Of a stretch of DNA of 64,000 bases, positions 4,236 through 54,846 are shown one piece after another. How positions within the stretch are numbered: position 1 is the first letter of the stretch; each line of letters begins with the position of its first letter. The notes under the pieces were generated by a model, which made no database searches, was not told the DNA's origin, and worked only from the letters and a program-made list of their open reading frames with translations. Made by a program: the position numbers and the translations under genes. Source of the DNA: Actinocatenispora thailandica (GTDB lineage Bacteria; Actinomycetota; Actinomycetes; Mycobacteriales; Micromonosporaceae); assembly GCF_016865425.1 (NCBI RefSeq), contig NZ_AP023355.1:6198198-6262197 (forward strand), given 5' to 3'.

Positions 4236-6223
4236 TCATGGTGTTGTCCGGTGGGGCAAGCGCATTCCGTCCAGACGACACCATGATCAACTCCTCGGTA
4301 ACCGGGGCGGGCGGCGAGGCGGGGTTCAGTGGGGGGTGCGGACGCCGGGGGTTCGGGGCGCGCGTGCGGGCCCGGCTGCGGCGGCGGGGTGTAGGACGGG
4401 GCGTGCTGGGTGGTGGCGGACCGGGCCCGGCCGAGTGCCGGCGGCGTGACCACCGTGCGCAGCCGCAGGTAACGGATGAAGCCCTCGTGGTCGAGGCTGT
4501 GCCGCACCGCGTCGGTGTACTCGGTGAACGCCGGATAGCCGTCGTAGGCCAGCACCGTGTACGCGTTGGTCGCCACCCGGTAGCTGCGGCCGAGGTCCAG
4601 CGGCTGCCCGTCGATCGTCACGGTCGCCGGATCGACCCGCTGCCCGACCGGCTTCGTCACGTCGTAGACGTAGCGGACCTGCTGCGACACCGCGACCGGG
4701 GCGTACTGCACGGTACCGTCGGCCTGGGTCTGCCACTGCTGTTCCAGGCCGCGGTGGAACGCGTCGCCGGTCATCGTCACCGTCACGATCGGGGAGTCGA
4801 ACCCGTACGACTTCCACGCCTCGCCGTAGCAGATCACGCCGTCGTCGTCGCCCGCACCGGTTCCCTTGGCGTACCGGAGATCCCCGGCCAGCGCGCTGCG
4901 TCCCTTCGGCGGCAGGACCGGCAGGAAGCCGAACTCGGCGGTGGCGCGCGGGCCGTCCTGCCTCGCATCCCACACGATGAAGTCGGCGACGAAGTTGCCG
5001 AACGTGCTCTCCCCGTCGTCGTTCGGGGTGCGCACCAGATCGCCGGTCTGCCGGGCGATCCGGGTCGCGGCCAGCCGGTCCGAGGCGGCCGACCAGTAGT
5101 CGGCGATGTCCTGCACCTGCGGGTCGGCCGGCACGTCGCGGGTGACCGCGTGGTTGGTCGCGGTGGTCAGCTCCCGCACGAACCGGCCGGTCGTCGGGTC
5201 GAGCTTGAGGCCCACCTCGGTGATGACCTGGCCGTAGCAGCCGGCCTCGGTCACCGGTCGCGGCACGCCGTCGGGTCCGGGCACCATCATGTTGAACCGG
5301 CAGTGCCAGTGCCCGGTGACGATCGCGGCGATGTCCGGGTCGGCGACCGCGGCCAGGTCGAACGCCGGCCCGGTCGGATTGGTACCGGAATTGAAGTCGG
5401 GGCCGGCGTAGCCGCCCTGGTGCATCACCACGACCAGCGCTCTGACGCCCCGTCGCTGCAACGCGGCGGCGGACCGGTTCGCCGCCGCGATCAGGTCGGT
5501 GGTGGCGAGCGTCGGCTGGTACGAGCAGTTGAAGCCGGGGCCCTCCACGCAGCCCTCGACGGTCAGGTGGATGAACCCGACCGGGATCCGCCGACCGTGC
5601 CCGGCGTCCACGTACTCGATGTTGTACGCCGGGGCGATGAGCCGGTTGCCGTCCCGGTACACCACGTTCCCGGTGTAGTACTTCCAGTCGGCGCCGTGGA
5701 AGCGCCGGCCGGTGGAGTCGACGAAGTCGACGAACGGCTCGTCGTACGGGTAGCGGTGGCCGTCCTGCATGTGCTGGAACAGGAAGTCGGTGCCCTTGTC
5801 CAGCTCGTGGTTGCCGACCGAGGAGAAGCGCAGACCCAGCGCGTTGAGCACCTCGATGGTGGGTTCGTTGTTCTGCGAGTCGACGTAGTAGGGCCAGCCG
5901 GAGAAGTTGTCCCCGGACGAGCAGAGGATCGAGTTGGCGTGGCCCTCCCGGATCCGCTTCAGGTGGGTGGCAAGGTATCCGACGCCACCGACCTGCAGCT
6001 TGACGCCGCCGGCGCCGGTGATGATGCCGCCGTCGTTGTCGGCCGGCGGCTGCAGGTACCCGTGCAGATCGGTGATGTTCACCAGCTGGACATCGATGTA
6101 CCCGTTGGTACTGGCGGGATCCGCGGCGGCGGCCGTGGACAGTGCGGTGGGGCCGACCGCGACACCGGCGGCGAGGCCACCGCTCGCGGCGAGAACGGTA
6201 CGGCGACTGATCGGGGTGTGCAT
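3926..6223 (-). CDS. Tat-exported 5'-nucleotidase family protein, 3' end run-on
   Basis: The frame encodes 765 residues. It starts with a twin-arginine signal (SRRTVLAASGG) ending near an Ala-rich cleavage region. A metallophosphatase domain follows: NITDLHGYL, SSGDNFSG, SVGNHELDKG, VVMHQGG and TGHWHC supply the usual metal ligands. A 5'-nucleotidase C-terminal domain follows (STFGNFVADFIVWDAR, YRVATNAY). It probably releases phosphate from extracellular nucleotides. The recognisable protein ends near residue 630, around base 4330. The frame then continues without a stop through the 61-bp palindrome and about 310 nt antisense to the methyltransferase gene, to TAG 3926. The original stop was probably lost by a small change, so the real 3' boundary is uncertain. 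The ATG 6223 start is supported by the signal peptide. Confidence 0.82.
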   Translation of the reverse strand: MHTPISRRTVLAASGGLAAGVAVGPTALSTAAAADPASTNGYIDVQLVNITDLHGYLQPPADNDGGIITGAGGVKLQVGGVGYLATHLKRIREGHANSILCSSGDNFSGWPYYVDSQNNEPTIEVLNALGLRFSSVGNHELDKGTDFLFQHMQDGHRYPYDEPFVDFVDSTGRRFHGADWKYYTGNVVYRDGNRLIAPAYNIEYVDAGHGRRIPVGFIHLTVEGCVEGPGFNCSYQPTLATTDLIAAANRSAAALQRRGVRALVVVMHQGGYAGPDFNSGTNPTGPAFDLAAVADPDIAAIVTGHWHCRFNMMVPGPDGVPRPVTEAGCYGQVITEVGLKLDPTTGRFVRELTTATNHAVTRDVPADPQVQDIADYWSAASDRLAATRIARQTGDLVRTPNDDGESTFGNFVADFIVWDARQDGPRATAEFGFLPVLPPKGRSALAGDLRYAKGTGAGDDDGVICYGEAWKSYGFDSPIVTVTMTGDAFHRGLEQQWQTQADGTVQYAPVAVSQQVRYVYDVTKPVGQRVDPATVTIDGQPLDLGRSYRVATNAYTVLAYDGYPAFTEYTDAVRHSLDHEGFIRYLRLRTVVTPPALGRARSATTQHAPSYTPPPQPGPHARPEPPASAPPTEPRLAARPGYRGVDHGVVWTECACPTGQHHDQPGMARVGRPIPAAWSSQSWPPRPVGSVTSAACVAAASARRYPAGSAAASASGGRSPVTPSARNASRCRTSASPGTSNESQATWAVRSVEPSGTGGTCRPCR
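4231..4291. repeat. 61-bp palindromic element, copy 1
   Basis: Left arm GTTGATCATGGTGTTGTC (4231-4248) pairs with 4274-4291 at 17 of 18 positions around a 25-nt centre containing GCAAGCGC. It lies where the MidA-like gene and the nucleotidase gene converge. The methyltransferase stop is in the left arm, and the nucleotidase frame reads straight through. The same 61-bp layout recurs at 13316 and 25223. It could act as a bidirectional terminator; no U-tract follows. Confidence 0.85.
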
Positions 6224-45827: not shown

Positions 45828-46871
45828 ATGTTCAGCAAACGATCCGTGCTCGTGGTCGTACCGGTGCTGCTGACCGCCGCGGTCCTCGCCGGATGCACCA
45901 ACGGCGGCAAGAAGGGCGGCTCCGGCACCCCGAGCAGCACGACCGCGGCGGGCTCGGACAGCCAGAGCAGCTCGTACGAGAAGGTCGTGTCGAACGTGCT
46001 GCGCTCGGTGGTGCAGATCAACACCTCGCAGGGCCTCGGCTCGGGTGTCGTCTACGACGACAAGGGCGACATCGTGACCAACGCGCACGTCGTCGGCAGC
46101 GCCACGAGCTTCCAGGTCACCACGGCGACCAGTCAGAAGCCGCTGTCGGCGACGCTGGTGGCGAGCTACCCGCCGAACGACATCGCGGTGATCAGGGTGT
46201 CCGGCGACCTGAACGTACCGGCGGCCAAGTTCGGCGACTCCGGCAAGCTGAAGGTCGGCCAGCAGGTACTGGCGATGGGCAGCCCGCTGGGGCTGTCCGG
46301 TTCGGTGACCAACGGCATCGTCTCCGCGGTCGGCCGTACCGTGCAGGAGCCGCGCAGCCAGGACGCCCCGGCGACCACGATCAGCGACATGGTGCAGACC
46401 TCCGCCGCGATCAACCCGGGCAACAGCGGTGGCGCCCTGGTCGACCTGAACTCGCAGGTCGTCGGGGTACCGACGCTGGCCGCGACCGATCAGCAGGAGG
46501 GCGGCGCGGCGCCCGGGATCGGGTTCGCGCTGTCCAGCAACACGGTCACCCGGATCGCCGACCAGATCATCAAGAACGGCTCGGTCGGCAAGTCGGGGCG
46601 TGCCGCGCTCGGGGTGACGGTCCGGCCGGTGCTGAACCAGGACTACCAGCCGGCGGGTGCCGCGGTGGTGTCGGTGACGAAGAACGGGCCGGCGGACAAG
46701 GCGGGCATCCGGGCCGGCGACGTGATCACCGCGGTCGACGGTACCCAGGTGACCGATGTCGGGCAGCTGACCACGATCCTCGCCGGGCACCAGCCGGGCG
46801 ACACCGTCGAGGTGACCGTCGACCGGGACGGCAACCAGCAGCAGATCAAGGTCAAGCTCGGCGAGCAGTGA
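45828..46871 (+). CDS. HtrA/DegP-like serine protease lipoprotein with PDZ domain
   Basis: A 347-residue surface protease. The lipobox LAGC (Cys23) is followed by a Ser/Thr/Gly linker and a trypsin-like domain with His87 (TNAHVVG), Asp118 (PPNDIAV) and Ser200 (NPGNSGGAL). A PDZ domain lies at about 255-340 (AGIRAGDVITAVDGTQV). It would degrade or refold damaged proteins outside the membrane. Unlike mycobacterial HtrA it has no membrane span; a lipid anchor replaces it. Confidence 0.94.
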   Translation: MFSKRSVLVVVPVLLTAAVLAGCTNGGKKGGSGTPSSTTAAGSDSQSSSYEKVVSNVLRSVVQINTSQGLGSGVVYDDKGDIVTNAHVVGSATSFQVTTATSQKPLSATLVASYPPNDIAVIRVSGDLNVPAAKFGDSGKLKVGQQVLAMGSPLGLSGSVTNGIVSAVGRTVQEPRSQDAPATTISDMVQTSAAINPGNSGGALVDLNSQVVGVPTLAATDQQEGGAAPGIGFALSSNTVTRIADQIIKNGSVGKSGRAALGVTVRPVLNQDYQPAGAAVVSVTKNGPADKAGIRAGDVITAVDGTQVTDVGQLTTILAGHQPGDTVEVTVDRDGNQQQIKVKLGEQ

Positions 46872-46916: not shown

Positions 46917-48851
46917 TCACCCGCGGGTACGGAGCTGGCGCAGGGTCCGGCCGCCGCTGGCGCGCTTGAACAGGTACTCGGCGCGCTCGTAGGACAGCCG
47001 GCGCCGGCCGGTCTCCGGGCACAGGTCGGCGGCGGCGGTCCGGCGGGCCGGTGCCGGCCGGCGGTCGCTGCGGAACAGCGGCCCGCAGCGCCGGCCGGCG
47101 ACCAGCTCCGGCAGCACCTCGGCGGTGCCGGTACCCCAGGTCAGCCAGCCGGTGCCGACCCGCGCCCGGCGGCGCGGCAGGTCCAGGTCGGCCACGTCGA
47201 GGGCGAGCGCCGCGCTGACCGCGGCGCCGGACTCGGCAAGCAGCAGCCACAGCGCCCGCTCCCGCACCGCGACGCCGGGCCGGGCGCAGAGCGCGGCGAG
47301 CTCGGCCGCCGGCATCGGCGCGGTACGGCCGGCCGGCTCGGCCCGCCGTGCCAGCCCGGCGTCGAGTCCGGCGCGGCCGGCCCAGCCGCCGAACGACCGG
47401 ACCGCCGCGCGGTGCCGGTTCCAGGTACGGGAGGCGGCGCCGCCCCAGGCCGAGTCGAAGACCCGGGCGACGGCGTCCGCGGTGACGTCGGCGAGCGGGA
47501 TGCTCGGGCCGAGGTCGAGGCAGAGCCGGCGCAGCGTCTGCCGGTACGAGCGGAGCGTGCCGGCCCGGTGCCGGTCCCGGTCGAGGAACTCGCGTACCGC
47601 GGCGTCCAGGGTGCGGGCGGACGGCGGCGCGGCGGGCAGTGCGGCGGCCCGGCGGCGCAGGAAGGTCCGTTCGGCGGCGGTGCCGGCCAGCGCCGCCGCC
47701 CGGTCGTACTCGCGGCGGGCCTCGCCGGTGCGGCCGACCCGGGCCAGCAGGTCGGCCCGCACCCCGGGCAGCAGGTGGTAGTCGCGCAGCGCGGGGTCGC
47801 CGGCCAGCTCGTCGACCGCGGCGAGGCCGGCGGCCGGGCCGCGCGCCGCGCCGACGGCGACCGCCCGGTTGAGCCGCACCACCGGCGTCGGCAGCAGCCG
47901 GATCAGCGCGTCGTACAGCGCGGCGATCTCGGCCCAGTCGGTCTCCTCGGCGCGGCGGGCGCGGGCGTGGCAGGCGGCGATCGCGGCCTGCAGCACGTAC
48001 CGCCCGGGCGGCTCGCCGGTGTCCCGGGCGCGCAGCAGGGCGGTGAACCCGCGGCGGATCAGCAGCGGGTCCCAGCGACCGCGGTCCTGCTCGGCCAGCG
48101 GTACCGGGGTGCCGTCGGCGGCGGCGCGCGTGGCGGACCGGGACGCCTGGATCTCCAGCAGCGCGACCAGCCCGTGCACCTCGGCGGTGCCGGGTGCGAG
48201 CCCGGCGAGCAGCCGGGCCAGCCGCAGCGCCTCCAGGCACAGTCCGGGCCGGATCAGGTCGTCGCCGGCGCTGGCCGTGTACCCCTCGTTGAAGATCAGG
48301 TACAGCACGTCGAGGACGGCGGCGATCCGGTCGGCCAGCTCGCCCGCCGGCGGCAGTTCGAACCGCACCCCCGCCTCGGCGAGGGCCTGCCGGGCCGCCG
48401 CGACCCGGCGCACCACGGTGCGCTCGTCGAGCAGGAACGCGCGCCCGATCTCGGCCGCGGTCAGCCCGCCGACCAGCCGCAAGGTCAACGCCACCCGGTA
48501 CGGCGGGGGCAGCACCGGGTGGCAGGTCAGAAGCATCAGCCGCAGCACGTCGTCCGGCGGCTCGTCGCTCGACCGGCGCGCCTGCTCGCGCCCGGCGCGC
48601 TCGGTCGCCCGATCGGCGCGGGCCGAGCGGCGCAGCTGGTCGACGGCCCGCCGCTTCGCCACCGTGGTCAGCCAGCCGGCCGGATTGTCCGGTACGCCGT
48701 CTGCGCGCCATTGTTCCAGCGCGGCGACGAGCGCGTCCTGGGCCAGCTCCTCGGCCAGCCCGACGTCGTGAACCAGCCGGGTCAGCGCGGCGATGATCCG
48801 CGCCGACTCCAGCTTCCACACCGCGTCGAGCGTGGCCTCGACGTCCCTCAT
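46917..48851 (-). CDS. ECF42-like sigma factor fused to tyrosine-recombinase-like domain
   Basis: A 644-residue protein, far longer than ECF42 sigma factors of about 400. Residues 1-160 are sigma region 2 (VHDVGLAEELAQDALVAALEQW) and region 4 (ALTLRLVGGLTAAEIGRAFL, RTVVRRVAAARQAL). Residues 165-405 are the SnoaL-free, TPR-like ECF42 extension (YLIFNEGYTAS, LNRAVAVG, FLRRR). Residues 412-644 match a tyrosine recombinase: core-binding SARTLDAAVREFLDR to SFGGWAG, then a catalytic-like domain ending RLSYERAEYLFKRASGG, TLRQLRTRG. The Arg usually in the ESAAR box is absent (ESGAAVSAALAL), HQLRH reads RQLRT, and no catalytic Tyr follows, so it cannot recombine DNA. It is paired with a YCII gene. Confidence 0.88.
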   Translation of the reverse strand: MRDVEATLDAVWKLESARIIAALTRLVHDVGLAEELAQDALVAALEQWRADGVPDNPAGWLTTVAKRRAVDQLRRSARADRATERAGREQARRSSDEPPDDVLRLMLLTCHPVLPPPYRVALTLRLVGGLTAAEIGRAFLLDERTVVRRVAAARQALAEAGVRFELPPAGELADRIAAVLDVLYLIFNEGYTASAGDDLIRPGLCLEALRLARLLAGLAPGTAEVHGLVALLEIQASRSATRAAADGTPVPLAEQDRGRWDPLLIRRGFTALLRARDTGEPPGRYVLQAAIAACHARARRAEETDWAEIAALYDALIRLLPTPVVRLNRAVAVGAARGPAAGLAAVDELAGDPALRDYHLLPGVRADLLARVGRTGEARREYDRAAALAGTAAERTFLRRRAAALPAAPPSARTLDAAVREFLDRDRHRAGTLRSYRQTLRRLCLDLGPSIPLADVTADAVARVFDSAWGGAASRTWNRHRAAVRSFGGWAGRAGLDAGLARRAEPAGRTAPMPAAELAALCARPGVAVRERALWLLLAESGAAVSAALALDVADLDLPRRRARVGTGWLTWGTGTAEVLPELVAGRRCGPLFRSDRRPAPARRTAAADLCPETGRRRLSYERAEYLFKRASGGRTLRQLRTRG

Positions 48852-48927: not shown

Positions 48928-49251
48928 TCATGCCGAGTAGACCTGCCGGAGGGTGCTCTCGCCGTCGCCCACGATCCGGCGGAACCGGCGGCTCAGCTCG
49001 ATCGCTTCCTCCTTGGAGCTCACCTCGACCAGCGCGAAGCTGGCGATCGCCTCCTTGGCCTCGGTGAACGGGCCGTCGGTGACGGTGATCTCGGCGCCGT
49101 CCGAACTGATCCGGGTACCGCCCGGCTCCAGGCCGCCGGTGGCGAGCAGCACGCCGGACGCGGTCAGTTCCCGGACGAACTCGCCCATCTCGGCGAACAG
49201 CTTCTCGTCCGGCGCGGTGTCGGACGGCCCGGTGGTCATCAGGTATCGCAT
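48928..49251 (-). CDS. YCII (DGPF-motif) protein
   Basis: A 107-residue YCII-fold protein with the DGPF motif in EITVTDGPFTEAKEAIASF, the usual partner of ECF42 sigma factors, and a C-terminal ELSRRFRRIVGDG. The sigma gene starts 76 nt downstream on the same strand, so the pair is one unit. In known pairs the sigma factor drives expression of the DGPF gene. The enzymatic role is unclear. Confidence 0.92.
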   Translation of the reverse strand: MRYLMTTGPSDTAPDEKLFAEMGEFVRELTASGVLLATGGLEPGGTRISSDGAEITVTDGPFTEAKEAIASFALVEVSSKEEAIELSRRFRRIVGDGESTLRQVYSA

Positions 49252-49315
49252 GTCGTGCTCCTCGTTCGGTTCGCGCCCCCGGTGCGGCGGCGCCACACCC
49301 GAACGTCGCCCCAGC

Positions 49316-49756
49316 CTATGTGACAGGGAACGTTTCGCACCGACGTCGCGCAGGAAGCTCGTCCGGGCACCGGCTGGGCCGGCGGCGAGTGCCGTGGCCG
49401 CTCGCGGGCACCGGACCGGGTGGCCCCGTACCGTCGCACGAGGTGGAAGTCGGCGCCGCCCATCGTGTGGTGGTGAACGAGATCTGCCCGGACGTCGGCG
49501 AACTCGCCTCGCCGAACGCGAGGTCGAGCACGTCCCGGGAGCCGGACACCTGGCTGATCGGGACGTACCCGGAGCCGTTGGCGAAGCTGGCATGCAGGTA
49601 GCCGACCGGCGCATGCGCCGGCAGCCCCGCCGTCGTCGCGGCCGTACGACCGTGCGCCGATGCCTGGTTCGGTTGCCCCGCAACCGAACTGGCCACCGCC
49701 AGCAGCGTCGCCGCGAGCACGCCGACGATGCGCCGCCGTACCGCCGAGGGGGTCAT
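49316..49756 (-). pseudogene. Truncated GH18 chitinase gene fragment
   Basis: The frame encodes a signal peptide (RRRIVGVLAATLLAVASSVAG) followed by VGYLHASFANGSGYVPISQV and DVLDLAFGEA, the first two strands of a GH18 barrel. Family similarity stops near residue 96. The rest is low-complexity, and the catalytic DxxDxDxE motif is missing. The ATG overlaps the stop of the complete chitinase as ATGA, so it may still be translated as a 146-residue secreted stub. Confidence 0.65.
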
Positions 49757-51249
49757 GGCAGCGTGTCCAGGTGCGGGCCGACGGTGTTCGCGAACGCGTA
49801 CCCGTTGCTCGCGTCCCAGTTGATCGACCAGGTCATCGCGCCGCGCACGGACCAGTGCGTGTCCGGCACGTACGAGCCGCAGTTGGTGCCGGTGGCCAGG
49901 CAGTCCAGCGCATCGTTCACTGTGGACGGTGGCAGATAGCCGCCGCCGGCGGCGGAGCCGGACGCCGGCAGCCCGAGCCCGACCTGGCCGGGTGCCAGGC
50001 CGCCCTGCAACTGGATGCAGGCCAGCGCGGTGAGGAAGTCCTCGGTGCCCTGGCCGTACACCTTGCCGTCGCAGCCGAGCATGGTGCCGGAGTTGTAGTA
50101 CTGCATGTTGTCGATGGTCAGCACGTCCTTCGCGGCGAGCGCGAGCTTGAAGTACGCCATCCCGGTGGACTGCATGTCGATGGTCTGCGGTGCCATCGTG
50201 ATGATGGTGTCGCTGCCGCCGGCGGACGCGATCCGGTGCAGTGCCTGCGACATGTACGTGGCGTCGACGCCGTTCTCCAGGTCGATGTCCACACCGTCGA
50301 AGCCGTACTGCTGCATCAGCGCGGTGATGCTGCTGGCGAAGTTGTTCGCGGCGGTGGAGTCGGCGACGCTGATCGTGCCGTTCTGCCCGCCGACCGACAG
50401 GATCACCTTCTGGCCGCGGGCGTGCACGGTCGCCACGTCCGCCTTGAAGTCCTCGTCGGTGTAGCCGCCCAGCTGGCCGGACAGCCCCGAGTCGACGGAG
50501 AAGGTGACCGCACCCGGCGTGCTCGGGTCGGCGTTCGCGAACGCCACCGCGATCAGGTCGTAGCTGGTCGGTACGTCGGACAGCCGCAACGCCGTGGCAC
50601 CGTTGTAGAAGTCCTGCCAGTACCCGGTGAGCACGTGCGCGGGCAGCTCGCCGGCCGGTGGGGTACCCCCGCCGGACGTGGTGGTCACCGACACCGCGGC
50701 CGACCGCGGCGACTCGCCGGCCGCGTTGTACGCGCTGACCGTGAAGCCGTACGCGGTGCTCGGGGCGAGGCCGGTGACCGTCACCGAGGTGCCGGTCACG
50801 GTGGCGACCGAGGTGCCGTCCCGGTAGACGTGGTAGCCCTGGACGTCCCCGCCCGGCGCGGTCCAGGACAGCGTCACGGTGGAATCGGTGACGCTACCGG
50901 CGGACAGGCCGGTCGGTGCGGCCGGCGCGGTGGGGCTGCCGCCGCCGTCGCACGCGCCGTCGTCCTGCCACGGGCCCCATTCGGCGGCTCCGGGCGTCTC
51001 GCCCTGGGTCCACCACTTCGCGGTCCACTCGTGGTTCTGGTAGCTGACCTGGTCGCCGCCGACGTAGACGGCGGTGCTGCTCCAGGCGTCCGCGGTGCAG
51101 GTGACCGCGGGTGCGGCGGCTGCCGGGGATGCGGCGCCGAGCAGGCCGGCGGCGAGCACCGCGCCCGCCGCGACGGCGAGAACTCGGCGCGCGACCGCGG
51201 TGGGCCGGACGGCCGCACCCCCGGTCGGGAGGATTCTGGTTCGTCTCAT
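49753..51249 (-). CDS. GH18 chitinase with CBM5/12 and FN3 domains
   Basis: A 498-residue secreted chitinase. Signal peptide 1-46 (AVAAGAVLAAGLLGAASPAAAA). Residues 52-100 are a CBM5/12 chitin-binding module (AWSSTAVYVGGDQVSY, WWTQGETPGAAEWGPW). Residues 108-190 are a fibronectin type III domain. Residues 204-495 are a GH18 barrel with the catalytic DGVDIDLE (318-325, acid Glu325). It cleaves chitin extracellularly. ATG 51249 precedes a clear signal peptide; earlier codons in the same frame run through tandem repeats and are not included. Downstream of the large chitinase on the same strand. Confidence 0.94.
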   Translation of the reverse strand: MRRTRILPTGGAAVRPTAVARRVLAVAAGAVLAAGLLGAASPAAAAPAVTCTADAWSSTAVYVGGDQVSYQNHEWTAKWWTQGETPGAAEWGPWQDDGACDGGGSPTAPAAPTGLSAGSVTDSTVTLSWTAPGGDVQGYHVYRDGTSVATVTGTSVTVTGLAPSTAYGFTVSAYNAAGESPRSAAVSVTTTSGGGTPPAGELPAHVLTGYWQDFYNGATALRLSDVPTSYDLIAVAFANADPSTPGAVTFSVDSGLSGQLGGYTDEDFKADVATVHARGQKVILSVGGQNGTISVADSTAANNFASSITALMQQYGFDGVDIDLENGVDATYMSQALHRIASAGGSDTIITMAPQTIDMQSTGMAYFKLALAAKDVLTIDNMQYYNSGTMLGCDGKVYGQGTEDFLTALACIQLQGGLAPGQVGLGLPASGSAAGGGYLPPSTVNDALDCLATGTNCGSYVPDTHWSVRGAMTWSINWDASNGYAFANTVGPHLDTLP

Positions 51250-51383
51250 CGTGGCCTCGGGTCTTCTCGTCCGCACCGGCGGTGCGGCGGCGTCCCGCCC
51301 CGGAGGGGGGACGAGGGCGGGACGCCGTGGGGGGAGCGTGCGCAACGTGGGTCGGTGGTGCCGGGCCGCCATGCCCGGCCCGG

Positions 51384-51511
51384 CACCACCGGGTCCTGGT
51401 GCCCGCGATGTCGGGCACCACCGGGTCCTGGTGCCCGCGATGTCGGGCGCCACCGGGTCCTGGTGCCCGCGATGTCGGGCACCACCGGGTCCCGGTGCCC
51501 GACGTCGGCGG
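51384..51511. repeat. Four tandem copies of a 32-bp hairpin-forming unit
   Basis: Units at 51384-51415 and 51416-51447 are identical. The third (51448-51479) differs at one base, and the fourth (51480-51511) is degraded. Each unit can form the stem GGTGCCCG/CGGGCACC around CGATGT. The array lies in the 309-nt gap between the two chitinase genes, which holds no gene. It may act as a multi-hairpin terminator or mRNA spacer. Confidence 0.85.
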
Positions 51512-51558
51512 GTCGGTCGGCGCGGCGCACCGGCGGTCACCGGCACGCCGCGCGGCCG

Positions 51559-54500
51559 TCAGTGCTTGCGTGGGGTGATCGCGGCCGGCGGCGCGTACGG
51601 CGCGGCACCGGTCCGGTCGCCGGGCGCCGGCGACGCCTGGACCGAGTTCGTGGTGGCGGCGCTCGACGGCGGCCCGAACACGCCCCAGGTGTCGGTGGCG
51701 TACTTCGAGCAGTCGGCCGGCTTGCCCTTCGCGGACTCGGACAGGATCTTCTCCAGCAGCGGCTGGCTGGTGGCCGTCTCGTCGTACGCCGAGAAGATCA
51801 TCATGCCGCCGAGCCCGTTGCACTTCGCGTACGCGACATGGTCCACGATGGACTGTGGCGTGCTACCGGCGTAGAACGTGCTGCCGTCGTAGTACCAGCC
51901 GGCCATCCGCACCGGGTCGTAGTACGCGGTGCCGGAGATCTCCTTCTGCAACGCGACCCCGGGTACGTTGCCGGACAGCGGATGCGGCGCGCTCGGACCG
52001 GTCGCCGTGCCGTACTCGCCGTTGCTGCCGCCGGCCGGCACGCCGGTCCAGCCCCGGTAGTACATCGGGAGCCCGATCGTCAGCTTGTCGGCCGGGAACC
52101 CGCCGGGGATGGAGTACATCGGGTCGCCGACCGTGTACGCCTTCAGCACCGTGTCCGAGTCGTACTGCTGGGTACCGCCCGGCACCTGCGGCGACGGGTC
52201 GTCCGCGGACGGGAACAGCGGGTCCTGCAGGTTGGTCGGGCCGGTGGCGTCCCAGGCACCGTGCATGTCGTAGGTCATCACGTTGCCGTAGTCCAGGTAC
52301 TGACCGATCTTGTCGGTCTGCACCTTGTCGATCTTGTCCTGGCCGCCCGGCAGCGCCGCGGTCAGCAGGTAGTGCTGGCCGCCAAGCGCGTCCAGCTGGG
52401 ACCGGAACTCGGCCAGCAGCGCGGTGTAGTTCGCGGTGTCGTCCGGGCTGTAGTGGTTGCCGACGTGGCCGGCGTCCGACGCCGGGTACTCCCAGTCGAT
52501 GTCGAAGCCGTCGAAGATGCCGGCCGCCGTGCCCGGACCGCCGTAGCCACCGGCGGACGGGATGTTGCCCTTGATGAACATGTCGATGCAGGAGCTGACG
52601 AACTTCTGCCGGGACGCGCTCGTCGCCGCCGCGTCGGAGAAGTACTTCGAGTAGGTCCAGCCGCCGATCGACATGACGACCTTCAGGTTGGGGTGCCGCG
52701 CCTTCAGCTCCTTCAACTGGTTGAAGTTGCCGACGATCGGCTGGTTGTACGTGTCGGCCGTACCGTCGACGCTGATGTCCGCGCCGAACGACTTCTGGTA
52801 GTCCGCGAACGCGTCACCGGCCCCGTCGCCGGCGTTCGGGTCGGTCTCGCCGCCCGGGTCGGGGGTCGACGCCTTCGTCGCCTCGAAGCAGGTCTTGCTG
52901 TTCGGGTCGATGTTCGCGAAGTCGTAGTTGATCACGTCGATGTCGTCCGCGTACCGGTCCAGGTCCTTGAGGTAGTACGCGTTCTGGTAGATCGACCACT
53001 GGTCGAAGTAGATGATGTTCTTGTCGCCGGCGCCGGATCCGTTGATGTAGCCGGACTTCCCGCCGTCGCCGCCACCACCGCCCGCTGCCGGGGTGCTCAC
53101 CGACACCGCGTCGGTCTTCGGGCTCTCCCCGGCCGTGTTCACCGCGGTGACCTGGAACTGGTAGGTGGTCTGCGCGGTCAGGCCGGACACGGTGGCGCTG
53201 GTGCCGCTCGCCGAGGAGACCTTCGTCCCGTCCTGGTAGACGTTGTAGCTGTCCACCGTCCCGGAGGGTGCGGTCCAGGCCAGCGCCACGGTGCTGGCGC
53301 CGGTGGCCATCGCGGAGAGCCCGGTCGGCGCCGCCGGTACGGTGCTGCCGCCGCCACCGCCGCAGGCGCCGTCGTCCTGCCAGGGTCCCCACTCGGCGGC
53401 ACCGGGCGTCTCACCCTGCGTCCACCACTTCGCGGTCCAGGCGTGCCCGTCGTAGCTGGCCTTGTCGCCGCCGACGTACACGGCGGTCGAGTCCCACGGG
53501 TCCGGGCACGCGTCGGCCGGGGACACGTCCTTGCGGGACACCTGCTGGTACGCCAGCGACGGCGTCGCCGTGCCGCTCGCCGCGGACGCCGTGCTGCCGC
53601 TCGCCGCGGACGCGGCGGTGCAGGCGCCCTCGTCGACCCATGGCCCCCACTCGCTCGCGCCGGGCTGCTCGTTCTGCGTCCACCACTTGGCCTTCCAGGT
53701 GTGGCCGTCGTAGGTCACCTCGGACCCACCGGTGTACGCGGTGTTCGCGTCCCACGCCGCCGCGGTGCAGGTACCCGGGTCGGTACCGCCACCGCCCGGC
53801 GGGGTGGTCGGCGGGTCGACGACCGTGGTCTGGTTGGCGAACGCGGTGGTGTAGGTGGTGAACTCCCACTTCTGCTGCGTCACGCTGGAGCACTCACCGG
53901 ACAGCTTCTGGTTCTCCGGCGGGTCGCATTCCCGGTCCCGGTTGGCCGACCAGAACGTGTACCGCCCGAGCTTGTGCGACAGCGCGTAGTTCAGCACGGT
54001 CTGGAAGTCGGCCTGCCGGAAGTACTCGGCCGCGTCGGTGCGGCCGTTCATCCCGGAGACGCCCTCGTGCTGGTAGGCGAAGTCGGAGTCCCAGCCGAGG
54101 TGGCTCGTCAGCAGCCCGTGGAACGCCTCCAGCGCCGCGGTCTGGCTCGCGCCGCCGCCGCTGAAGCCGTTGTCGAACGGCATGATGGAGTAGTTGGACG
54201 GGATGAAGCCGATCGACTTCGCCTGGTCCAGCAGTTGGGTGCCGAACCAGCCGGTGCCGGCGCTGGTGCCCGGCATGGTGACCGACACGTACAGCCCGGG
54301 GTTGTCCGCCTGGAGCTGCTTCGCGGCGCCGAGTTCACGCCCGATCGCGGCGGTGTTCTCGTACTCCGGCTCCTCCAGGTCGAAGTCGATCGCGTGCAGG
54401 CCGTACGCGTCGATGACCTTCTGGTACGCGGCGGCGGTCGACGCCACGTCCGAGCAGGCCTGGCCGAGCTTGGTGCCGTTGTAACCGCCGACCGAGACGG

Positions 54501-54846
54501 ACACGTCGCCGCCCTTGCCGCGAATGGTGTCGATGGCCGCGGTGATGTCCGGCGCCGAGCCGATCGGCGTCTTGCCGTCCCAGGCCGGGTTGCAGCCGCC
54601 GTCGGAGAGGATGAACGCGAGCTGGAACGCCTTCTGCCCGGTCGCGTCCATGATCTCGGCCGGGTCCGGCGGGTTGTTGTCCGCCGGCATCAGGTACGGC
54701 GCCGCCGCGTACCAGTTCGTCGACAGCGCGGCGCTCGGCGCCACCTGTCTCGTTGCGGGTGCGGCGGCTCCGGCGGTCGCGGCGGCGCCGGCGAAGAGCA
54801 CGCCCACCGAGACGGCGCAGAGCACCTTGCTGATCGGTCTGTGCAC
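51559..54846 (-). CDS. Chitinase with two GH18 catalytic domains
   Basis: A 1095-residue secreted enzyme. Signal peptide 1-29. First GH18-like barrel at about 40-340 with IDFDLEE (154-159, acid Glu158). Two CBM5/12 modules follow (about 360-410, WWTQNEQPGASEWGPW, and 450-495, WWTQGETPGAAEWGPW), then an FN3 domain (505-588). The second GH18 barrel (about 605-1045) has DGFDIDWE (779-786, Glu786) and SIGGWTYSKYF. The two barrels belong to different GH18 subgroups, so the enzyme may combine endo- and processive action on chitin. ATG 54846 has an AGGAGG-like site. The promoter at 54958-54986 and a palindrome at 54933 precede it. Confidence 0.93.
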   Translation of the reverse strand: MHRPISKVLCAVSVGVLFAGAAATAGAAAPATRQVAPSAALSTNWYAAAPYLMPADNNPPDPAEIMDATGQKAFQLAFILSDGGCNPAWDGKTPIGSAPDITAAIDTIRGKGGDVSVSVGGYNGTKLGQACSDVASTAAAYQKVIDAYGLHAIDFDLEEPEYENTAAIGRELGAAKQLQADNPGLYVSVTMPGTSAGTGWFGTQLLDQAKSIGFIPSNYSIMPFDNGFSGGGASQTAALEAFHGLLTSHLGWDSDFAYQHEGVSGMNGRTDAAEYFRQADFQTVLNYALSHKLGRYTFWSANRDRECDPPENQKLSGECSSVTQQKWEFTTYTTAFANQTTVVDPPTTPPGGGGTDPGTCTAAAWDANTAYTGGSEVTYDGHTWKAKWWTQNEQPGASEWGPWVDEGACTAASAASGSTASAASGTATPSLAYQQVSRKDVSPADACPDPWDSTAVYVGGDKASYDGHAWTAKWWTQGETPGAAEWGPWQDDGACGGGGGSTVPAAPTGLSAMATGASTVALAWTAPSGTVDSYNVYQDGTKVSSASGTSATVSGLTAQTTYQFQVTAVNTAGESPKTDAVSVSTPAAGGGGGDGGKSGYINGSGAGDKNIIYFDQWSIYQNAYYLKDLDRYADDIDVINYDFANIDPNSKTCFEATKASTPDPGGETDPNAGDGAGDAFADYQKSFGADISVDGTADTYNQPIVGNFNQLKELKARHPNLKVVMSIGGWTYSKYFSDAAATSASRQKFVSSCIDMFIKGNIPSAGGYGGPGTAAGIFDGFDIDWEYPASDAGHVGNHYSPDDTANYTALLAEFRSQLDALGGQHYLLTAALPGGQDKIDKVQTDKIGQYLDYGNVMTYDMHGAWDATGPTNLQDPLFPSADDPSPQVPGGTQQYDSDTVLKAYTVGDPMYSIPGGFPADKLTIGLPMYYRGWTGVPAGGSNGEYGTATGPSAPHPLSGNVPGVALQKEISGTAYYDPVRMAGWYYDGSTFYAGSTPQSIVDHVAYAKCNGLGGMMIFSAYDETATSQPLLEKILSESAKGKPADCSKYATDTWGVFGPPSSAATTNSVQASPAPGDRTGAAPYAPPAAITPRKH

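Follow-up and report, generated by a model that had tools for sequence, protein, structure and literature searches.

We report here a gene in which an ECF42-type sigma factor, of the extracytoplasmic function (ECF) class, continues in frame into a tail derived from a tyrosine recombinase. It lies in a 64,000-nucleotide stretch of Actinocatenispora thailandica DNA (NZ_AP023355.1, positions 6,198,198 to 6,262,197; hereafter the window). Comparison of the gene, its upstream DNA and its relatives, together with structure prediction, makes it probable that the recombinase has been domesticated as a second DNA-recognition domain, one that would replace -35 recognition in the derived members of the group. 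A more specific proposal, which we hold a little less firmly and still regard as likely, is that -35 reading was handed over from sigma region 4 (sigma-4) to the fused integrase, a recombinase half-site becoming the -35 element and a full site becoming a divergent promoter between the YCII-sigma operon and a DUF998 gene, with early-branching fused proteins as the intermediate. The initial annotation of the window, made from its letters, had offered such a sequence-specific DNA-binding arm as one of two readings, the other being a recent accidental fusion. The first gains support because a 13-bp site tracks the tail and also occurs near standalone recombinases, and because the sigma-4 arginine at residue 152 is lost where this site appears to replace the -35 element.

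Domain structure of the fused protein

The fused gene, its operon partner and the proposed promoter elements are located as follows.

46917..48851 (-): ECF42 sigma factor with degenerate tyrosine-recombinase tail, 644 amino acids (open reading frame, Pfam, orthologue in congener G003)
48618..48800 (-): sigma region 2 (sigma-2), residues 18-78 (Pfam PF04542, Sigma70_r2)
48381..48539 (-): sigma region 4, residues 105-157 (Pfam PF08281, Sigma70_r4_2)
48396..48398 (-): codon of residue 152, Ala in the window protein (head comparison)
47637..48329 (-): DUF6596 and mostly helical ECF42 C-terminal extension, residues 175-405 (Pfam PF20239 at 175-275; AlphaFold model)
46920..47621 (-): recombinase-derived tail, residues 411-644 (Pfam, alignments, AlphaFold, Foldseek)
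47370..47582 (-): core-binding (SAM-like) domain, residues 424-494 (PF02899; conservation)
46932..47309 (-): truncated catalytic domain, residues 515-640, ending just before the HxLRH motif (alignment, model)
48928..49251 (-): YCII/YciI family gene, first gene of the operon (open reading frame, directly upstream of the sigma gene)
49318..49330 (-): 13-mer TTCCCTGTCACAT, proposed tail binding site at the -35 position (motif scan)
49304..49308 (-): CGACG, proposed -10 element, starting 22 nt after the start of the 13-mer

The initially annotated coordinates, 46917-48851, are correct, and the gene lies there on the minus strand; it reads through 644 codons with no internal stop, and Pfam recognizes domains in both head and tail. 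The complete ECF42 head (residues 1-405) with its upstream YCII partner, at 49251-48928, was likewise borne out: Sigma70_r2, Sigma70_r4_2 and DUF6596 all score above their cut-offs, so that region 2, region 4 and the DUF6596 extension of tetratricopeptide repeat (TPR) type are present in the window protein, and the YCII/YciI gene shares its operon. A search of the genus aligned most of the head with unfused paralogues at 43-60% identity. The TPR label comes from the ECF42 literature, and this extension is thought to bind other proteins, according to the available text of two reviews (PMC8999054; PMC8103513). YCII stands directly upstream of the sigma gene in 68 of 74 fused loci (among L054-L133).

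The tail matches Phage_int_SAM_1 (PF02899) at residues 424-494 with 27.6 bits against a cut-off of 22.3. Phage_integrase (PF00589) stays below its cut-off (11.3 against 27.1) and was seen only when the tail was searched alone, and NCBIfam links the tail weakly to XerC/XerD-type recombinases, far under the cut-offs of those models. AlphaFold models the tail with a mean predicted local distance difference test score (pLDDT) of 95.5, the whole protein reaching 90.6 with a predicted template modelling score of 0.69. The best PDB matches of the tail in Foldseek are XerA, Tn1549 Int, integron integrase, XerD and lambda Int (E 6e-6 to 1e-3; template modelling score by query 0.41-0.70), with weak matches to MrpR (8a0a, E 0.03) and YopR (8bj6, E 0.07). 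The PF02899 match, the confident model and the Foldseek hits to tyrosine recombinases agree with the core-binding and catalytic-like domains that had been read from the sequence; in the predicted structure both folds of a tyrosine recombinase are present, the catalytic domain being incomplete.

Spread and age of the fusion

The fusion was confirmed to be real, neither chance nor a sequencing accident, because the congener G003 carries the same fusion with 86% identity over all 644 residues and because 97 distinct sequences from the loci collected hold head and tail in one frame; the occurrence of the fusion in related genomes, a check proposed with the initial annotation, is thus established. 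The genus search found no tail match in the other two congeners (G001, G002). A tail scan of public genomes confirmed at least 90 loci, of which 80 were retained, and the named fused genes belong to Streptomycetaceae, Streptosporangiaceae, Pseudonocardiaceae and Micromonosporaceae. Of 394 genomes sampled across the class, the window genome and 13 others have tail matches of at least 55% identity in open frames longer than 630 amino acids; in a further one (G369) such a match is in two pieces. A fused locus also occurs, among independent assemblies, in a complete RefSeq plasmid: the Streptomyces anulatus plasmid locus (RefSeq/PLSDB) is annotated with DUF998, YciI and a "sigma-70 family RNA polymerase sigma factor", the tail being unmentioned, and its intergenic region carries the 13+8+13 repeat described below. 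The gene is split between frames in two genomes (G062 and G036) and broken in another (G096). No match for the tail was found in phages, and a search of viral contigs with the standalone recombinase L106 gave two pattern-matching stretches, none confirmed.

Identical sequences, motif-centred loci (L203-L250, which would bias the motif count) and L039 and L171, frame-split copies that make up 2 of the 42 rows with no tail in frame, were dropped before counting. Promoter counts exclude loci without a detected YCII gene or with less than 150-200 bp of upstream DNA. The 97 fused sequences and the 97 fused loci with upstream DNA are different sets with 74 locus ids in common.

In the tail tree, which left out seven poor rows (six standalone, one frame-split piece), all 97 fused rows fall on one side of a branch with support 89 (not starred), and standalone recombinases of Thermomonosporaceae adjoin them. 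In the head tree the fused rows group together, apart from the two frame-split copies and with the unfused L011 near the base. A group of 13 Streptosporangiaceae rows branches early in both trees; we refer to this type as early-branching and to the other fused members as derived. The early-branching set comprises 13 rows in the trees and in the count of catalytic residues, and 19 in the count of residue 152, after more genomes had been added. Because the fused tails form one branch, occur in several families and show purifying selection, the reading of the gene as a recent accidental fusion is refuted, and an artefact is rejected on the same grounds together with the G003 orthologue and the 97 fused sequences. 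Judged from these comparisons, the fusion is old.

The literature search found no description of a sigma-integrase fusion, in line with the initial annotation, which knew of none; an earlier mention is possible in the main ECF re-classification and ECF42 characterisation papers.

A predicted recombinase fold under selection, without the full catalytic set

Nearly all fused tails lack the full R-K-H-R-H/W-Y catalytic set of tyrosine recombinases. Alignment with relatives that keep these residues substantiated the loss of the key catalytic positions and the cut C-terminus: the full R/H/R/H-W/Y set is present in 26 of 32 rows without a head, in 1 of 13 early-branching fused rows (L098) and in none of 84 derived fused rows, single catalytic positions persisting in some fused rows. 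The Lys column is a gap in 83 of the 84 derived rows, and the window tail has neither the Arg-I position nor the Lys hairpin. Most fused proteins end just before or at the HxLRH motif. Proteins of the Microbispora type keep the C-terminal part and have mostly lost the Tyr, so the loss was stepwise. L098, from a Sphaerisporangium metagenome-assembled genome (MAG), is a fused sigma factor with the full R/H/R/H/Y set and the C-terminus; the same MAG holds a fusion of the truncated type (L055).

Other parts of the tail are strongly conserved. W477, N478, R479 and H480 are invariant in alignment A2 (72 rows), and the TWNRH block, R125, W130, R182, R192 and most of RLSYERAEYLFK are invariant or nearly so among 93 fused tails (tail-alignment numbering), the T of TWNRH being variable in some loci fetched later. 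The comparison of substitution rates between tail and head, also proposed initially, gave a ratio of nonsynonymous to synonymous rates (omega) of 0.15-0.57 for the tail in 21 pairs, with values below 1 in all 21 for tail and head alike. By this measure the tail is under purifying selection. Alignments and the structural model together suggest that it keeps the integrase fold and not its catalysis, and its sequence gives no reason to expect recombination activity.

A 13-bp site tracks the tail

In a first promoter scan, the ECF42-like pattern TGTCG[AG] was missing from most fused loci. A motif search was therefore made, in which a k-mer search recovered the 13-mer TTCCCTGTCACAT. With at most one mismatch and on either strand, 94 of 97 fused loci have it in the 400 bp before the YCII-sigma operon; for 200 permuted motifs the count averaged 0.03 and never exceeded 1. 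Unfused ECF42-YCII operons had the 13-mer in 0 of 35 cases, even at two mismatches. The window itself holds a single match at two or fewer mismatches; at this threshold, one or more matches also turn up in 33 of 100 shuffles. At genome scale, the exact 13-mer is present once in the window genome (G000, 7.43 Mb) and once in G003, each time at the fused locus, and the genome scan found none in the tail-less congeners G001 and G002. In the family it occurs in 29 of 354 genomes, 22 of which carry the fused gene (one of them, G096, in broken form); the reversed pattern was found in 0 of the 354. In G096, several of the copies (L271-L279) share similar flanks, and the sigma gene there appears broken (open reading frame of 375 amino acids, L053). 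These copies were considered as a regulon and rejected, none being followed by CGACG.

Loss of the -35 element and of the sigma-4 arginine

The ECF42 promoter motif used here was derived from the unfused operons, a canonical form of which has a TGTCGA-like -35 and a CGA -10 element. At the window, CGACG is kept and TTCCCTGTCACAT stands at the -35 position, the 13-mer (49330-49318) starting 22 nt before CGACG (49308-49304). The spacing is nearly fixed among derived fused loci: from start to start it is 22 nt in 51 and 21 nt in 13 of 72 (64/72). In unfused operons, the start of TGTC lies 23 nt from that of CG[AT] in 19 of 35, at other distances in 4, and 12 have no match. Among unfused operons, 14 of 35 have the strict pattern GTCGA-N16-18-CGAC and 23 of 35 the looser TGTC[GA][AT]-N15-18-CG[AT]; the corresponding counts are 10 and 4 of 12 for early-branching operons and 1 and 4 of 72 for derived ones. 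TGTCGA was present in L098 in the first scan and missed by the stricter pattern. In the ten early-branching loci with a -35 element found, the nearest 13-mer starts upstream of it by 41-42 nt (six loci), 53-54 nt (three) or 65 nt (one), distances that step by about one helical turn.

The protein differs in parallel. Residue 152, in the recognition helix of sigma-4, is Arg in 40 of 40 unfused proteins, 19 of 19 early-branching fused proteins and 6 of 102 derived ones, in which it is mainly A (38), D (14), G (14), E (10) or S (8), among others. Residue 151 is Ala in 92 of the 102 derived proteins; unfused proteins mostly have V, T or S, followed by the Arg at 152. The window helix reads Ala151-Ala152. 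For the comparison of residue 152 with the promoter, upstream DNA was available for only 84 of 121 fused rows, in part because the duplicate that was retained had none. In the sigma-H factor of PDB chain 6in7_B, the residue that aligns with position 152 of the window protein is the Arg of TVRSRIFRAREA. In Escherichia coli sigmaE, the residue that reads the -35 element is R176. In models of Corynebacterium sigmaH/sigmaD, R175 contacts the first -35 base, as given in the available text of the source (PMC11588781). The helix pattern suggests that R175 and residue 152 occupy the same position.

Inverted repeats, standalone recombinases and divergent DUF998 genes

A 13+8+13 repeat, with inverted 13-bp arms spaced 21 nt apart around an 8-bp spacer, is present in 40 of 97 fused loci; in 9 of 97 the arms are 22-23 nt apart. 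At base 3, 45 of 59 arm pairs read C/C, 11 read A/A and 3 are mixed. The repeat resembles a recombinase core site (two inverted 11-13-bp arms and a 6-8-bp spacer) and may derive from a crossover site; the window itself keeps one arm only. In the nearest standalone group (five Thermomonosporaceae and one MAG), the same inverted repeat is present at every one of the six loci. Its spacer there is 7 bp, its distance upstream of the gene ranges from 170 to 1650 bp, and in most cases one or both arms contain mismatches; four of these six recombinases have the full catalytic set. In a more distant standalone clade, 7 of 10 loci scanned have a related repeat at about -153. No ECF42 head was found near standalone recombinase loci within the fetched flanks, and neither an ECF42 head nor YCII was found at L134-L153, some of which have a related repeat. 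Several of the standalone recombinases L134-L148 and L167 show an inverted repeat at about -142 to -158, in at least two sequence versions, which may be an autoregulatory or attachment site. At L106, a degenerate frame resembling the start of ParA (about 5434-5800, by eye) lies between the inverted repeat and the recombinase, which suggests a plasmid or integrated-element origin.

The upstream inverted arm is followed by its own CGACG, giving an outward promoter pattern, in 61 of 97 fused loci. Within 600 bp, a DUF998 gene is present at 56 of 107 fused loci versus 0 of 38 unfused ones, and the divergent gene of L054 encodes a DUF998 protein (116 bits). The repeat thus often appears to be a divergent promoter that also faces a DUF998 gene. 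In the window, with its single arm, there is no DUF998 match.

Genome-wide extent of the putative promoter

The full pattern, TTMCCTGTCRCAT followed by 8-9 nt and CGACG, was found at 59 sites in 40 of 58 genomes chosen as carriers of the fused gene, the reversed control giving zero; this set includes doubtful genomes (G096, broken; G062, split), and 5 of the 18 siteless genomes are of the early-branching type. Each of the 59 sites shares a contig with the fused gene, and the greatest distance to the tail is about 5.4 kb (G073). Two sites occur in 19 of the 40 site-bearing genomes, four of the pairs being wider apart. A scan with a 9-nt gap and up to three mismatches gave 10 sites in G000 (its own with 0, one with 2 and eight with 3 mismatches; reversed control 2), 7 in G003 (control 6), and 7 and 12 in the tail-less G001 and G002 (controls 3 and 6). 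At three or fewer mismatches, looser sites are no commoner in the window genome than in its tail-less congeners; therefore we claim no further target, looser sites not being excluded.

Proposed mechanism and alternative explanations

We propose that a recombinase gene arrived at an ECF42-YCII locus together with a core site of 13-bp arms, and that it was then fused to the C-terminus of the sigma factor. At first the tail would have bound 13-mers upstream of a normal -35 element and aided recruitment of the holoenzyme, an arrangement that the early-branching Streptosporangiaceae would still keep. Later, one 13-mer would have come to occupy the -35 position, GTCGA and the base-reading arginine of sigma-4 being lost, along with the catalytic residues and the C-terminus. 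In the window protein, sigma-2 would read CGACG as the -10 element and the tail would read TTCCCTGTCACAT in place of sigma-4. The protein is predicted to act on its own YCII-sigma operon and, at loci with a second inverted arm, also on a divergent gene for a DUF998 membrane protein. That the tail binds the 13-mer, that this contact replaces the one between sigma-4 and the -35 element, and that the complex activates rather than represses, we infer from sequence comparison.

Several observations weigh against this proposal. The 13-mer lies on the operon's own strand (at most one mismatch) in only 78 of 97 loci; the well-matching copy faces away from the operon at L074, L079 and L105, and L062, L064, L094, L173 and L252 have a degraded proximal arm. 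A second arm at 21-23 nt is absent from 48 of the 97 loci, that of the window among them. The exact 13-mer also occurs once in each of seven family genomes that lack the fused gene, and G096 has ten dispersed exact copies without CGACG. The baseline for the loss of the -35 element is imperfect, the strict and looser patterns being recovered in no more than 14 and 23 of the 35 unfused operons. R152 is kept in 6 of the 102 derived proteins, and three have Lys. Covariation between base 3 of the site and tail residues 435 and 481 was non-significant once ancestry was allowed for (five independent pairs). In the trees, L052 looks early-branching for the head and not for the tail, and L011, a gene of a tail-less congener, falls near the base of the fused group for the head. 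Finally, omega of the tail exceeds that of the head in 19 of 21 pairs (0.57 against 0.33 for the window pair), so the tail is the less constrained part.

The alternative that survives best, although we consider it unlikely, makes the tail an autorepressor or activity switch: bound to the 13-mer, it would block the operon or inhibit the sigma factor until a signal arrives, and it would have no share in how the holoenzyme recognizes its promoter. Repressors classically bind at the -35 position, which the site overlaps; a single repeat spans both divergent promoters where both arms exist; and MrpR, which has an inactive tyrosine-recombinase fold, is described as a repressor in the available text of its report (PMC10516654). 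However, 71 of 72 derived operons have lost the strict -35 pattern and 96 of 102 derived proteins have lost R152, so something must replace them. The fixed spacing of 21-22 nt to CGACG (64/72) would be needless for a repressor, and the early-branching 13-mers, 41-65 nt upstream of the -35 element in steps of a helical turn, occupy an activator-like place.

Less likely again is a change of specificity by which sigma-4 itself came to use the 5' part of the 13-mer as its -35 element, with the tail as a passenger of structural or regulatory role. Most of sigma-4 is conserved, positions 151 and 152 being among the few exceptions, and TTCCCT overlies the -35 hexamer. Yet 13 bp is longer than a -35 element, and the 13-mer also occurs near standalone recombinases with no ECF42 head in the fetched flanks and, at early-branching loci, apart from the -35 element. 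Residue 152 is moreover scattered over many amino acids with no single new residue, as expected of a lost contact.

We give little credence to the view that the 13-mer is the site of an unrelated regulator that accompanies these loci by chance. The seven genomes with a 13-mer and no fused gene would fit it, as would the indirect nature of the case for tail binding, but the repeat has the geometry of a recombinase core site, is found at standalone recombinase loci where no ECF42 head was found, and is represented by no 13-mer in the tail-less congeners. That the fusion is a recent accident or assembly artefact with a decaying tail is scarcely credible: the tail is catalytically dead, truncated and faster-evolving than the head, and the gene is disrupted in three genomes, but against this stand 97 distinct fused sequences on one branch of the tail tree with omega below 1, the conserved TWNRH and RLSYERAEYLFK blocks, a compact and confident model, and independent assemblies that include a complete plasmid.

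Relation to known systems

By descent, to judge from its domains and operon, the fused protein is an ECF42 variant; the mode of promoter recognition proposed for it is, as far as we found, undescribed. With the ECF42 proteins Sven_0747, Sven_7131 and Sven_4377 it shares region 2, region 4, the DUF6596 extension, the YCII gene and the operon order. It differs from them in the added recombinase domain of 230 amino acids, the 13-mer in place of a -35 element, the loss of R152 in most derived members and the frequent divergent DUF998 gene. The available text of the two ECF42 reviews (PMC8999054; PMC8103513) mentions only the TPR-type extension for this group.

The standalone recombinases (L102, L106, L107, L110, L130 and L134-L152) are homologues of the tail with 34-53% identity (alignment A1), and many have the same or a related inverted repeat nearby; unlike the fused tails, most keep the catalytic residues (26/32), and they have no sigma domain. 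MrpR/YopR of SPbeta combines a recombinase fold and lost catalysis with the role of a sequence-specific DNA-binding regulator, as far as the available text of its description goes (PMC10516654). The fused tail has likewise lost the catalytic set, and its co-distribution with the 13-mer suggests that it may bind DNA specifically. MrpR/YopR differs in being a free-standing phage repressor with a complete C-terminal domain, no sigma fusion and no part in promoter recognition by RNA polymerase. ECF41 and ECF56 proteins with a SnoaL_2 extension also have a fused C-terminal domain that modulates an ECF sigma factor (PMC8103513); as described in the available text, that domain is ligand-binding or regulatory, and neither a recombinase fold nor a long DNA site is mentioned.

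Neighbouring genes in the window

The following were noted by eye from the translations. An open reading frame resembling an HtrA-type serine protease with a PDZ domain (45828-46871, plus strand) is convergent with the fused gene, their ends lying 45 bp apart. Another (49316-49756, minus strand) adjoins the promoter and extends into the 13-mer; its start resembles a secreted chitinase-type N-terminus, and it is probably a truncated gene in the position where many relatives have the divergent DUF998 gene. Two large neighbouring frames at 49753-54846 (minus strand) resemble secreted GH18-type chitinases, and a short repeated sequence lies within this pair near 51.3-51.5 kb.

Conclusions

What defines an ECF sigma factor is a pair of parts that read DNA, sigma-2 at the -10 element and sigma-4 at the -35 element, and in the fused proteins a recombinase with its own site seems to have replaced the second. 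If true, this would be a new route by which RNA polymerase gains promoter specificity, in which an enzyme of a mobile element was co-opted together with its DNA site and living genomes still show the evolutionary series. With its 13-bp site and a regulon that appears to be confined to one locus, the proposal is directly testable, and it suggests that sigma factors may be programmed with long, highly specific sites.

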